Source: Phycisphaerales bacterium (GTDB lineage Bacteria > Planctomycetota > Phycisphaerae > Tepidisphaerales > Tepidisphaeraceae). From it: 50,522 nucleotides of DNA. Below the pieces are notes generated by a model, which ran no database searches, had not been told where the DNA came from, and saw only the letters and a program-made list of their open reading frames with translations. The stretch is taken from assembly GCA_020853095.1 (NCBI GenBank), contig JADYZN010000053.1, positions 1-50,522 on the forward strand, written 5' to 3'. Numbering within the stretch: position 1 is the stretch's first letter; every line of letters begins with the position of its first letter. Position numbers and translations under genes: made by a program. Below, one piece after another: positions 1 through 10,933 of the stretch.

Positions 1-116
1 AGAAATCTCCGGATCAACGCTCGTTTGCCAGCTTCCCGGAGCTTATCGCAGGCTACCACGTCTTTCGTCGCCTCTCGATGCCAAGACATCCACCATACAC
101 CCTTAGTAGCTTGACC
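1..116 (-). rRNA. rrl: 23S ribosomal RNA, 5' end (partial)
   Basis: Read on the minus strand, the sequence begins GGTCAAGCTACTAAGGG, followed by the conserved GGTGGATG, a GGCATCGAGAGGCGA-like block and GCGATAAGC. This is the universal 5' end of bacterial 23S rRNA (5.8S-like domain and start of domain I). The gene runs off the left edge of the window, so only about 116 bases are present. The 5' end is placed at 116 by analogy with the GGTTAAG start of E. coli 23S. No 16S 3' end and no tRNA lie upstream in the same direction before the next protein gene. Confidence 0.95.
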
Positions 117-6697: not shown

Positions 6698-9079
6698 TTA
6701 AATATGTCCGCGCTGGTGGCGTTTGCCCCGGCCGCGTTTTTTGGGCAATCGGTGGGCCAGCTTCATGGGCTTGGGCTTGTGTTTGCGGGGATGATGAGGT
6801 GCTTCATCGACACTGTGGCCGTGCGTGCCGCGGATCAATTCGGCGACCGCCAGGTCCAGTTCGCGCCGGGGAAGATCGACCTTGACCACCCGCACGCGGG
6901 CCTGGTCGCCGATGCCGATGCGCCGGCCGGTCCGACGTCCGCGCACCAGTCCGGCCCGCTCATCGACTTCCCAGTAATCGTCCATCAGGTCTTCATAGCG
7001 GATCAGCCCGTCAATCAGGTATTCCTGCAACTGGATGAAGATGCCGAACTTGGTGATGCCGGTGACGACTCCGTGAAATTCATCGCCGATGCGGTTTTGC
7101 AGCAGCTCCAGGATTTTCACCCGCCGAAGCTCGTTTTCCGCCTCATCCGCCCGGCGTTCGGTGACGGACAAATGCTTGCCGATTTCAACCAGCCGCTCGA
7201 AGGGGACCACGCGATCCAGTTGCACTGTTCGTTTTCGCGAAGGCGGGGATTTTTTCCGCCGGGCCTGCAAATAGGAATCGAGTAACCGATGGATCGTCAG
7301 GTCCGCGTAACGACGGATCGGCGAGGTGAAATGGCTGTAATGCTCGCTGGCCAGGGCGTAATGCCCCAGCGATTCGGGTGAATATTCCGCGCGCGACAAC
7401 GACTTGAGCACCGCCAGGTTCACGGCGAACGATTCGGGTTTTCCTTTGACCGAAGCGAGCAGTTGCTGCAATGCCTTGCGGTCGATGATCTTGGGAAGAC
7501 GATACCCGGCCACTTGAACGAAGGTGCGAAGGCGCTCGGACGATTCCATCTGCGGCTCGGCATGCGCCCGGCGAAGGAACGGCACATCCAGCCCATCGAG
7601 CAGCCGCGCCACCGCCTCGTTGGCCTCGACCATGAACATCTCGATGATCGTGTGCGTGTACGATTCATCCTCCGGCACCGCGCCGATGACCTTTCCCTCC
7701 TCATCCAGCACCAGGTCGATCTCCGGCAATCCCAGCACCAGTTGGCCGGCGGCGTGCCGGCGTTTTTGAATGCGCTTCGCAAGGGCGTCCATGTCCCGAA
7801 GCAGTTGCACGACGGCCGGGTCGTATTCCTCACGCCGGCGCGGACCATCGGGATGGGGAATCACCATCACGTTGTCCAGGATCGCCTGCGCCTCGCGATA
7901 GCGCAGTCGCTTGGCGGATCGGATGATCGTGTTGGCGAACTTGGCCGCCACCGGCCGGGCGTGTTCATCCAGCTCGATGAACGCGGATTTGCACAGCCTC
8001 GGCACGCCCTCCTGCAACGAACAGACGCCGTTGGACAGGATCTCCGGCAGCATCGGGATAACGTGGCCGGGAAAATAAGCGCTGTTGCCGCGTTTGGCCG
8101 CCTCCTGGTCCAGCGCCGATCCATCGGTCACGAAAAACGCCACGTCCGCGATGTGGACGCCCAGTTGCCAGTTGCCGTTGTCCAGTTGCCGCAACGAAAT
8201 GGCGTCGTCGTAATCCTTGGCATCGTCCGGGTCGATCGTGCAGATCAGATCGTCGGTCAAATCCAGCCGGCCAGCCTGTTCCTCCTTGAGCGTGGCGTTA
8301 AACCGGTCCATCGCCGCGCGGGATTCGGATCGAACCTGTTCGGGAAATTCACCCGGCAGGTTGTACTGCACGATGATCGAACGCAGATCGACGTCCTTTT
8401 CGCCGGCCGCTCCCAGCACCTCGGTGATGACGCCCTGCGCCCGCTGGCCATCCTGCGGCCAGTTGGTCAGCTCCACGACCACCTTGGTTCCCGGCTTGAT
8501 GTGGCGCGAGGCCGCATCCGGCGTCAGAATCGGATCGGTGAAATCGTTGCCATCGGGCAGGATCATCCATTGATTGTGCTGCCGCACCAGCGAGCCGACA
8601 AAGCGGTTGTTGACGCGACGGACGATCTCAGTGATCCGCCCCTCATACCGAAGCCGGCCTTCGCGTCGGTCGCTGCCGGTGATCTGGGCGCGCACGATGT
8701 CATCGGACAACGCACCGGCGTTTTGCCCTTCGGGGATGAACAAATCCTCATGTCCCGGCGGATCGGTCGGGATGACAAACCCAAACCCCCTGCGGTTGTG
8801 CCGATACGCGCCGACCACCATCCCATGCGTCAGGGCAGGCCGGACATTCGCGGCCGTATTGACCTTGACGGGCTTTGGCGTCGGCGGCAATTCGATGTTG
8901 CGTCCCCGCCCCACCACGACTTTTCCCTGTTCCTCCAGTTCGCTCAATGCGGACTTGAAGGCGGGATATTCTTCTTCACGATGTAAATTCAATTCACGCG
9001 CCAGCGCCCGTGCCTTGACGGGTCGATACGCGGAGTTCTTCAAATGATTCAAAATTCGACTTTGCAGATTTTCTGCCAT
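6698..9079 (-). CDS. rnr: ribonuclease R
   Basis: The 793-residue product is a 3'-5' processive exoribonuclease of the RNB family that degrades structured RNA. The order is: N-terminal helix-turn-helix-like segment (about 1-65), cold-shock OB domains (CSD1 with NRRGFGFV, then CSD2), the RNB catalytic domain starting near TIDPDDAKDYDDAISL with its acidic metal ligands, an S1 domain near the C terminus (GVVTGITKFGIFIQL) and a Lys/Arg/His-rich tail, all usual for RNase R. I start at MAENLQSRIL (ATG at 9079), 7 bases after the stop of the sulfur-carrier gene. A frame open to 9127 would overlap that gene and lacks similarity. It is probably cotranscribed with the two upstream genes. Confidence 0.93.
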   Translation of the reverse strand: MAENLQSRILNHLKNSAYRPVKARALARELNLHREEEYPAFKSALSELEEQGKVVVGRGRNIELPPTPKPVKVNTAANVRPALTHGMVVGAYRHNRRGFGFVIPTDPPGHEDLFIPEGQNAGALSDDIVRAQITGSDRREGRLRYEGRITEIVRRVNNRFVGSLVRQHNQWMILPDGNDFTDPILTPDAASRHIKPGTKVVVELTNWPQDGQRAQGVITEVLGAAGEKDVDLRSIIVQYNLPGEFPEQVRSESRAAMDRFNATLKEEQAGRLDLTDDLICTIDPDDAKDYDDAISLRQLDNGNWQLGVHIADVAFFVTDGSALDQEAAKRGNSAYFPGHVIPMLPEILSNGVCSLQEGVPRLCKSAFIELDEHARPVAAKFANTIIRSAKRLRYREAQAILDNVMVIPHPDGPRRREEYDPAVVQLLRDMDALAKRIQKRRHAAGQLVLGLPEIDLVLDEEGKVIGAVPEDESYTHTIIEMFMVEANEAVARLLDGLDVPFLRRAHAEPQMESSERLRTFVQVAGYRLPKIIDRKALQQLLASVKGKPESFAVNLAVLKSLSRAEYSPESLGHYALASEHYSHFTSPIRRYADLTIHRLLDSYLQARRKKSPPSRKRTVQLDRVVPFERLVEIGKHLSVTERRADEAENELRRVKILELLQNRIGDEFHGVVTGITKFGIFIQLQEYLIDGLIRYEDLMDDYWEVDERAGLVRGRRTGRRIGIGDQARVRVVKVDLPRRELDLAVAELIRGTHGHSVDEAPHHPRKHKPKPMKLAHRLPKKRGRGKRHQRGHI

Positions 9080-9086
9080 ATTAAAA

Positions 9087-9365
9087 CTATCGCCCCCCGG
9101 CGATGGCGGGAACGATCGAGATTTCATCCCCTTCCTTCACCGGCGTTTGCAGGTTTTTCAGGAAACGGATGTCCTCGTCGTTCAAATAAACGTTCACAAA
9201 ACGATTCAATTGATCTGGCCCCTTGAACAGCCTGGTCTCGATGCCGGCGGCCTTGGTTTTCAGATTGTTCAATACCTCGCCCACGTTGACGCCGGGCGCT
9301 TCCACCACGTCCGACCCGCCGGTGTAGCTTCGCAGAGGGGAGGGAATTCGTACTTTAATGCTCAT
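9087..9365 (-). CDS. MoaD/ThiS-family sulfur carrier protein ending in GGR
   Basis: The 92-residue protein has the beta-grasp pattern of MoaD/ThiS: MSIKVRIPSPLRSYTGG, a central helix (NVGEVLNNLKTK), RFVNVYLNDEDIRF, and the end EGDEISIVPAIAGGR. Such proteins carry sulfur as a C-terminal Gly-Gly thiocarboxylate after adenylation by an E1-like enzyme. Here one Arg follows the Gly-Gly, so the tail would have to be trimmed first, as for CysO-type carriers handled by a JAMM/Mec+ protease. The ATG at 9365 is preceded by AGGAG 5 bases upstream, which decides the start. It lies 35 bases after the threonine-synthase-like gene, under the same SAM riboswitch, which points to sulfur amino acid synthesis rather than molybdopterin or thiamine. 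Confidence 0.87.
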   Translation of the reverse strand: MSIKVRIPSPLRSYTGGSDVVEAPGVNVGEVLNNLKTKAAGIETRLFKGPDQLNRFVNVYLNDEDIRFLKNLQTPVKEGDEISIVPAIAGGR

Positions 9366-9400
9366 ATTGCTCCTGCTTTTTACTTTCAATGCGTAATTGA

Positions 9401-10663
9401 TTATAGCACCGTCGCCAGGCGATCTGAAATCTCCGGCTCCTGCTCCATCCATTGATCAAAATCCGTGATTTTCGGCTCGATGACCCGCCGGACGGGCAGC
9501 TCATCCACCACCGCTTCCTGGGTTTTCAGGCCGTTGCCGGTGATGCTGATGACAATCGACTCATCACGGGGGATTCGTCCCTGCTCGATCAGTTTGATCG
9601 CCGCCGCCAGCGTCGTTCCGCCGGCCGGCTCGGTCCAGATGCCTTCGGTTTTGGCCAGCAGCTTGATCGCGTCAACGATCTGCCGGTCGGTGGCGCTTTC
9701 GCCCCATCCGCCCGACTGCGTGACCACCTGATAGGCGTACAACCCATCGGCCGGATTGCCGATGGCGATTGATTTGGCCAATGTCCGGGGTTTTTGCGGT
9801 TCGATGTTGTCCGTGCCCTCGTGAATCGCCTTCACCACCGGATTGCACCCGGCCGCCTGCGCGGAATAAATCTTTGGCCGGTTGTCCTCCACAAGGCCCA
9901 ATTCGATCAATTCCTTATAGGCCTTGTACACTTTTGGCAAAATCGTCCCGCCGGCGGTCGGGATGATCGTGTGTTGCGGCAATTTCCATCCCAACTGCTC
10001 GGCGATCTCAAACCCGTGCGTCTTGGCCCCTTCGGTGTAATAAGGCCGAAGGTTCACGTTCACAATCGCCCAGCCATATTTATCCGCGATCTGCGTGCAA
10101 AGCCGGTTGACCTCATCGTAATTGCCGGCAATCCGCACCACCTGCGGCCCAAAAACCAGCGACCCCAGCACCTTTCCCTGTTCCAGATCGTGCGGGATCA
10201 TCACAAAACACCGCAAGCCGGCCTCGGCCGCATGGGCGGCGGTGGAATTGGCGAGGTTTCCCGTGCTGGCACATCCAACCGTGTCAAAACCAAACTCGAC
10301 CGCCTTGGAGATGGCGACCGAAACCACCCGTTCCTTATAGGAATAGGTGGGATAGTTGCACGAATCATCCTTGATCCAAAGTTGCGAAACGCCCAGTTCC
10401 CGTCCCAGCCGGTGTGCCCGTTTGAGCGGGGTGAAACCGGAATGAAATCCGGTTTGAGGTTCTCCCTCGATCGGCAGCAAATCCTTGTATCGCCACAAAC
10501 TGCGCGGCCCGGATTCAATGGATTGCCGCGTCACCCGCCCCCGCATCGCCTGGTAATCGTATTCAACTTCGTACGGCCCGAAACAGGCCTCGCAGACGTG
10601 AACCGGACTCACCGGAACCCGGTGGCCGCACTCTTTGCATTTCAAACCCAAAACGTAGCTCAT
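9401..10663 (-). CDS. thrC: threonine-synthase-like PLP enzyme, possibly a homocysteine synthase
   Basis: The 420-residue fold-type II PLP enzyme matches threonine synthase, which converts O-phosphohomoserine to threonine. It starts with a zinc-ribbon (C9, C12, C24, C27), followed by the PLP domain with YSYKERV (Schiff-base lysine K110), ASTGNLANS and the late PLP-phosphate-binding TAGGT and ITGNG loops. The ATG at 10663 is chosen by AAGGA 5 bases upstream. Two things are odd for a plain ThrC: it is headed by a SAM-I riboswitch, which normally controls methionine and cysteine genes, and it is followed by a sulfur carrier. I infer that it may perform gamma-replacement on an activated homoserine with carrier-bound sulfur. 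A true threonine synthase remains the conservative reading. Confidence 0.85.
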   Translation of the reverse strand: MSYVLGLKCKECGHRVPVSPVHVCEACFGPYEVEYDYQAMRGRVTRQSIESGPRSLWRYKDLLPIEGEPQTGFHSGFTPLKRAHRLGRELGVSQLWIKDDSCNYPTYSYKERVVSVAISKAVEFGFDTVGCASTGNLANSTAAHAAEAGLRCFVMIPHDLEQGKVLGSLVFGPQVVRIAGNYDEVNRLCTQIADKYGWAIVNVNLRPYYTEGAKTHGFEIAEQLGWKLPQHTIIPTAGGTILPKVYKAYKELIELGLVEDNRPKIYSAQAAGCNPVVKAIHEGTDNIEPQKPRTLAKSIAIGNPADGLYAYQVVTQSGGWGESATDRQIVDAIKLLAKTEGIWTEPAGGTTLAAAIKLIEQGRIPRDESIVISITGNGLKTQEAVVDELPVRRVIEPKITDFDQWMEQEPEISDRLATVL

Positions 10664-10708
10664 ATGTTCCTTCCGACGCCACGGGCAACCACGCCCGCTC
10701 GCCCAAAC

Positions 10709-10737
10709 AAAAAAAGCCGCTTCATATAAGAAGAGGC
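10709..10737 (-). terminator. regulated terminator of the SAM riboswitch
   Basis: On the minus strand GCCTCTTC, loop TTATAT and GAAGCGGC form an 8-position stem with one mismatch, followed directly by seven T. Its 5' arm (TCTTCTTAT, 10726-10734) is perfectly complementary to ATAAGAAGA in the 3' strand of aptamer helix P1 (10770-10779), which makes an antiterminator. This is the expression platform of a transcription-attenuating OFF switch. Confidence 0.88.
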
Positions 10738-10769
10738 CTTGGGCGGACACCTTGTCTCGTCGGTCAGCG

Positions 10770-10898
10770 TCTTCTTATCTTCCCTGTTGTTTTTTTCCAA
10801 CAGGCGGGAGTTAGCACCAAGTTCAACGGCGTGTTGTGCCGCCAACCGGTTGCTGTGGTGTCATCGGGCCCGAGTCCCTCGACCACTCTGGATAAGTT
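10770..10898 (-). ncRNA. SAM-I (S-box) riboswitch aptamer
   Basis: The minus strand shows the S-box core in order: CTTATCCAGAG (P1 and kink-turn side), GAGGGAC, GGGCCCGATGA, GCAACC, GGTGCTAACTCC, then a P4 hairpin CCTGTTG/CAACAGG, and finally GATAAGAAG. P1 is CTTATC (10891-10896) with GATAAG (10774-10779). The conserved blocks and their spacing match SAM-I riboswitches such as yitJ of Bacillus. With SAM bound P1 forms and the downstream terminator folds; without SAM the 3' P1 strand pairs with the terminator arm and transcription continues into the threonine-synthase-like gene. SAM-I RNAs nearly always control methionine, cysteine or SAM supply. Confidence 0.95.
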
Positions 10899-10905
10899 GC
10901 CGGTC

Positions 10906-10933
10906 ATCATAGGCAATGCCGGAGGAGAGTCAA
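10906..10933 (-). promoter_or_regulatory. sigma70-type promoter of the SAM riboswitch operon
   Basis: The minus strand has -35 TTGACT (10928-10933), a 16-base spacer and -10 TATGAT (10906-10911). The predicted start near 10899 falls exactly at the 5' edge of the aptamer. It sits in the gap after the stop of the secreted unknown protein, so the riboswitch operon starts independently. Confidence 0.8.

Follow-up and report, generated by a model that had tools for sequence, protein, structure and literature searches.

Our data point toward an operon, metM-metO, that makes homocysteine under the control of SAM in a planctomycete that carries a separate, canonical threonine synthase (ThrC); on the strength of sequence comparison, we give this reading a probability of about 0.86. 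The operon lies in a stretch of 50,522 nt (contig JADYZN010000053.1; here called the window), and the nearest named relatives of the genome are MAGs of Phycisphaerales and Phycisphaerae (Planctomycetota). It is a new member of the MetM/MetO system known from Streptomyces since 2024, not a new system. In Streptomyces albulus, MetM is described as a homocysteine synthase that uses O-phosphohomoserine, its gene adjoined by metO and preceded by a SAM riboswitch (Hasebe, Adachi, Maruyama, and Hamano 2024, Appl Environ Microbiol 90:e01247-24, doi 10.1128/aem.01247-24, PMC11497804, as described in PMC12172450). The sequence-only reading had taken the pairing of a ThrC-like enzyme with a sulfur carrier to be without prior description, which fails in view of MetM and MetO as that account presents them. 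This methionine pathway is very recent; it now extends to planctomycetes and, by our survey, to Nitrospirota, Nitrospinota, Omnitrophota, Aquificota, Acidobacteriota, Methylomirabilota, Mariprofundus, and others. Sequence models name MetM threonine synthase across the survey phyla; its distribution is broad and easily misnamed.

The metM-metO operon and its SAM-I riboswitch

All features of the operon lie on the minus strand. Its sigma-70-like promoter (TTGACT-N16-TATGAT, 10906 to 10933) agrees with the consensus at 10 of 12 positions and was the one match in the region, against 0.1 expected in shuffles; the −10 box ends 8 nt upstream of the aptamer. The SAM-I (S-box) aptamer at 10772 to 10898 scores 75.9 bits (E = 4.1e-16) with RF00162, whose gathering score is 44.4, and is the only SAM-I copy in the whole genome (3.61 Mb, 77 contigs, 96% complete). 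Sequence inspection and folding place its P1 pairing at 10896-10891/10779-10774. P1 overlaps, through its 3′ strand (10779-10774), one strand of an antiterminator (10726 to 10778), in which AUAAGAAG (10778-10771) and CUUCUUAU (10733-10726) form 8 consecutive pairs (−11.9 kcal/mol), and the second of these strands reaches into the 5′ arm of an intrinsic terminator (10709 to 10740, −12.0 kcal/mol; stem 10740-10713 with one mismatch, U7 at 10715-10709). Since the antiterminator has bases in common with both P1 and the terminator, antiterminator and terminator are mutually exclusive. P1 and the terminator are both retained in the MFE fold of the leader. A strict terminator scan of the leader returned no terminator, although folding does show one; the one mismatch in the stem is probably the reason. 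In sum, the leader is a complete SAM-I switch, with a score above the gathering threshold and an expression platform, and SAM binding is predicted.

The Shine-Dalgarno sequence GGAAGGA (10668 to 10674) precedes metM (9401 to 10663; ATG at 10663, stop at 9401), which encodes a ThrC-fold PLP enzyme of 420 aa, as assigned by PALP, TIGR00260, the tree, and motifs. metO (9087 to 9365) starts 35 nt past the metM stop and encodes a ThiS/MoaD-like sulfur carrier of 92 aa, recognized by ThiS and a MetO profile, that ends in VPAIAGGR. The aptamer score, folding, and these open reading frames confirm the promoter, the aptamer, the antiterminator and terminator, and the ThrC-like and MoaD/ThiS-like genes of the sequence-only reading. 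After a gap of 6 nt follows, by its coordinates, an RNase R-like gene (6698 to 9080). It may be a read-through partner, perhaps cotranscribed under the SAM switch, and RNase R-like genes likewise lie downstream in two close relatives (L032 and L039); we do not think that it is part of the MetM/MetO pathway. At the far end, window positions 1 to 116 are part of a 23S rRNA gene on the minus strand, and the contig therefore terminates at an rRNA operon.

S. albulus shares the arrangement in which a SAM riboswitch precedes the gene of a ThrC-like PLP enzyme and a small carrier gene comes next. The window differs from it in the planctomycete host, in a carrier that ends in GGR and not GG, in the additional presence of MetX-MetY and a CGS-like enzyme, and in the location of E1, JAMM, and CysM at another locus. 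A homologous locus in Nonomuraea keeps the gene order and has a groEL-like gene farther downstream, a SAM-I riboswitch upstream of metM (68.7 bits), and an enzyme 50% identical to that of the window.

MetM forms a group separate from canonical threonine synthase

MetM belongs to PF00291 (PALP, 223 bits), matches the NCBIfam thrC model TIGR00260 over its cut-off (267 bits), and matches the ThrC structure 6cgq with an E value of 8e-56. It has an N-terminal zinc ribbon (C9/C12/C24/C27), the PLP lysine K110, and the motifs TGNL and NVNLRPYY. The fold family and the PLP lysine are common to canonical ThrC (PDB 6cgq, 2zsj, 1uim), but MetM has TGNL for TGNT and NxNxRPYY for NSxNPxR, falls into a separate tree group, and is encoded in a genome that has a real ThrC. 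In the maximum likelihood tree, whose rows do not include the S. albulus MetM sequence, 46 MetM-type rows were split from 24 canonical ThrC by a 100/100 branch, and the MetM side takes in the window protein, Nonomuraea, and cyanobacterial homologues. TGNL was present in 110/110 MetM-type proteins and NxNxRPYY in nearly all of them, where ThrC has mostly TGNT or TGDT and NSxNPxR or NSMNSLR, respectively; these motifs were part of the patterns by which the 80 named loci had been found, but not of the searches behind the phylum panel and Nonomuraea. The altered NxNxRPYY stretch presumably corresponds to the phosphate-binding pocket of ThrC (Thermus enzyme). Measured against canonical threonine synthase, the window MetM thus neither groups with ThrC nor has the TGNT/TGDT loop and the NS-N--R site.

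In the phylum panel, for which 166 genomes of Planctomycetota were searched, MetM homologues with 49 to 100% identity were found in 29 (the window genome included); other ThrC-like proteins reached only about 40%, leaving a sharp gap. SAM-I riboswitches lie upstream of metM at 22 of the other 28 panel loci and, among the 80 named loci from many phyla, at 26, where some contigs are too short for a verdict. metO adjoins metM in 69 of these 80. Within 6 kb of metM they also encode E1 (36 loci), CysM or CysK (30), a separate NIL gene (31), JAMM (13), and a canonical ThrC-like protein (8). The gene order CysM-JAMM-E1-(SAM-I)-MetM-MetO-CysH-like in family f4 (L157 and L158) combines several of these. 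In eight named loci, mostly of Nitrospirota (L069, L071, L076, L079, L084, L087, L102, and L110), metM-metO(-NIL) is followed by a canonical thrC-like gene, and this side-by-side arrangement suggests separate jobs for the two enzymes.

Homocysteine routes in the window genome and in the panel

The sequence-only reading had named a complete classical pathway with no other threonine synthase in the genome as the finding that would count against it. The genome encodes a second, canonical ThrC on contig C38, beside a dapB-like gene (TIGR00260, 251 bits, over cut-off), and does not show this combination. The genome search that it had proposed turned up, in addition, MetY (TIGR01326, 642 bits) and MetX (NF001209, 494 bits), adjacent on C26, a CGS/CGL-type enzyme on C69, a JAMM protease, and an E1. 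Its proposal that homocysteine is made from O-phosphohomoserine and a carrier thiocarboxylate is well supported as a mechanism by comparison; the route is not the only possible one here, given MetX-MetY and the CGS-like enzyme, and we rejected metM as the sole homocysteine route because MetX-MetY is present. MetM/MetO is an extra, SAM-switched route alongside MetX-MetY, and since the genome has the latter, it is not needed by default. None of the classical genes (MetX-MetY, CGS-like) has a SAM-I switch. Of remaining interest are that MetM/MetO coexists here with MetX-MetY and has a private SAM switch, that its distribution is wide, and that MetO precursors may be tailed or NIL-fused.

A gene run on C11 encodes an E1-like enzyme, CysM, a JAMM protease, a rhodanese, and CysK, followed by CysC- and CysH-like genes. 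No carrier gene was found at C11; the other two carriers of the genome, MoaD and ThiS, are encoded on C18 and C44, and an E1-rhodanese of the MoeZ type on C69. The E1, JAMM, CysM, and rhodanese of C11 could activate and trim MetO. CysM, JAMM, and E1 occur together as in CysO/CysM/Mec+ of Mycobacterium, from which C11 differs in being without a carrier gene, and the cluster resembles classes 4c and 4e of the survey by Iyer et al. 2006, which described ThiS/MoaD-JAB-E1-cysteine synthase operons and named neither threonine synthase nor NIL (PMC1779556). A further cluster, on C33 of the window genome and at L125:1996-6888, places an E1-like ThiF, a JAB protein, and what appears to be an E2-like protein next to FHA proteins and looks like a ubiquitin-like conjugation cluster.

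Across the panel, 13/29 MetM genomes were without any strong PF01053 enzyme (MetB/MetC/MetY/MetZ type) compared to 3/137 others (P = 4e-9), counts that come from mutually related draft genomes, so that P values overstate independence. Strong MetX was found in 0/16 of the genomes without a strong PF01053 enzyme and in only 3/29 MetM genomes, the window genome among them. MetM is the only homocysteine route found by these searches in 13 sampled planctomycete genomes. The missing homocysteine step in Aquifex aeolicus was noted by Price et al. 2018 (PMC5764234), and MetM, found in Aquifex and Hydrogenobacter MAGs, is a candidate for it. In these MAGs (L094 and L101) metM has no adjoining metO; another Aquificaceae MAG (L090) has metO.

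Proposed pathway and alternative readings

The anatomy of the leader suggests that the antiterminator would form at low SAM and allow transcription of the operon, and that at high SAM the aptamer would close P1, the terminator would form, and transcription would stop. A cut would first expose the diglycine of MetO; an E1-like enzyme would then adenylate it, and sulfuration would leave a thiocarboxylate at the C terminus. For these steps, the E1, JAMM protease, and rhodanese of C11 are the likely helpers. The S. albulus MetO is said to act as the thiocarboxylate donor. MetM would take O-phosphohomoserine from the threonine pathway, and the sulfur of MetO would replace the phosphate to yield homocysteine, as reported for the S. 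albulus pair and expected here by homology. A thrB-type homoserine kinase (TIGR00191) was not found in the window genome; another kinase type would have to supply O-phosphohomoserine. Threonine would be made by the separate canonical ThrC, with the MetM/MetO route running parallel to MetX-MetY.

MetM/MetO homologues have been noted in cyanobacteria, and the best evidence contrary to homocysteine formation comes from Microcystis, whose homologue, beside a MetO and with the SAM riboswitch absent upstream, is reported to have behaved in vitro mainly as a threonine synthase and threonine deaminase; its homocysteine-like activity was only ambiguous (PMC12172450, mSystems). MetM might accordingly be a threonine synthase under incidental SAM control, with MetO serving another enzyme such as CysM of C11, as the NCBIfam name, the TIGR00260 score over cut-off, the threonine made by the Microcystis homologue, and the clustering of CysM, JAMM, and E1 with no carrier gene among them would allow. 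We consider this unlikely: the genome has its canonical ThrC, the MetM group is separate and changed at the residues of the ThrC NSxNPxR site, and SAM control suits methionine, not threonine; furthermore, the eight loci with metM and thrC adjacent and the many MetM genomes without another known homocysteine enzyme argue against it. No more probable, and perhaps slightly less so, is that MetM makes homocysteine from O-phosphohomoserine and free sulfide, MetO being dispensable or mainly a partner of CysM. In an assay with Na2S, Microcystis ThrC yielded a peak near methionine that was not identified (PMC12172450), and four genomes of family f24 (L026 to L029) have divergent MetM-like genes without a nearby metO and without a SAM riboswitch. 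Against free sulfide speak the adjoining metO in most named loci and the placement of both genes behind one riboswitch in the window. The f24 genomes have one NIL protein each, encoded elsewhere in the genome.

It is very unlikely that the pair makes another sulfur compound (cysteate-, CoM-, or specialized-thiol-like) instead of homocysteine. In favor of this, homocysteine is already supplied by MetX-MetY in the window genome, and MetM does match the cysteate synthase and XcbE families; these matches are distant, far under the curated cut-offs (79 versus 325 bits and 38.5 versus 450, respectively), and the riboswitch and the anticorrelation with the classical enzymes point to methionine.

MetO carriers, their C-terminal tails, and NIL fusions

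The window MetO (Pfam ThiS, 60.8 bits; MetO profile, E = 8e-45) has a core that ends in VPAIAGG and is followed by one residue, R, and the diglycine needs trimming for thiocarboxylation; a candidate for this cut is a JAMM protein encoded in the genome, in which the HSHPDHPARPSEYD stretch is intact. A protein-thiocarboxylate methionine pathway is also represented by HcyS/HcyD/HcyF of Wolinella (Krishnamoorthy and Begley 2011, as cited in PMC5764234). The partner of the window carrier is the PF00291 enzyme and not a Wolinella-type acceptor (MetY/PF01053). The Wolinella carrier is reportedly ThiS-like with a residue after GG, trimmed by a JAMM-type protease and activated by an E1-like enzyme, and its acceptor is said to be of the MetY type and to act on acetylhomoserine. 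The residue past GG is thus common to both systems, but the acceptor is a MetY-type enzyme there and a ThrC-fold enzyme in the window.

Among the 69 named loci with an adjoining metO, 26 have no residue past GG, 36 have a short, unconserved tail, and 7 have a longer stretch. GGR as a conserved MetO signature was rejected, as the closest relatives end in GG (L039) or GGANL (L032); judged by these sequences, the tail is labile, and GGR is lineage specific and not a hallmark. In nine loci (L015, L022, L023, L058, L061, L064, L068, L074, and L078; e.g., L064:7158-7784), three of them from planctomycete family f39, MetO reads as fused behind the diglycine to a NIL domain, and Pfam assigned ThiS and then NIL in 5/5 fusions scanned. 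A long "tail" in L053 was rejected as a tenth fusion, since it is an anchoring artifact and the carrier core ends in AAG. A JAMM gene lies in the same locus as the fusion in L058, L061, L064, and L068. Strong JAMM matches were present in 40/40 tailed-MetO genomes counted and in 23/29 with GG-ended MetO (Fisher P = 0.004, weakened by kinship and incomplete genomes). We tentatively suggest, at somewhat less than even odds, that outside Actinomycetota and Cyanobacteriota MetO is often a precursor, from which JAMM must remove an extension of one residue up to, in the nine loci, a full NIL domain before sulfur loading. If so, the primary metabolism of bacteria would have a counterpart of ubiquitin-fusion processing, and the released NIL part might be a separate subunit of the methionine pathway. 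A genome-wide search found no NIL domain in the window's own genome. In close relatives and in many phyla, a stand-alone NIL-domain gene lies downstream of metO (L003:3431-3682, L004:3281-3547, L038, L039, L077, and others).
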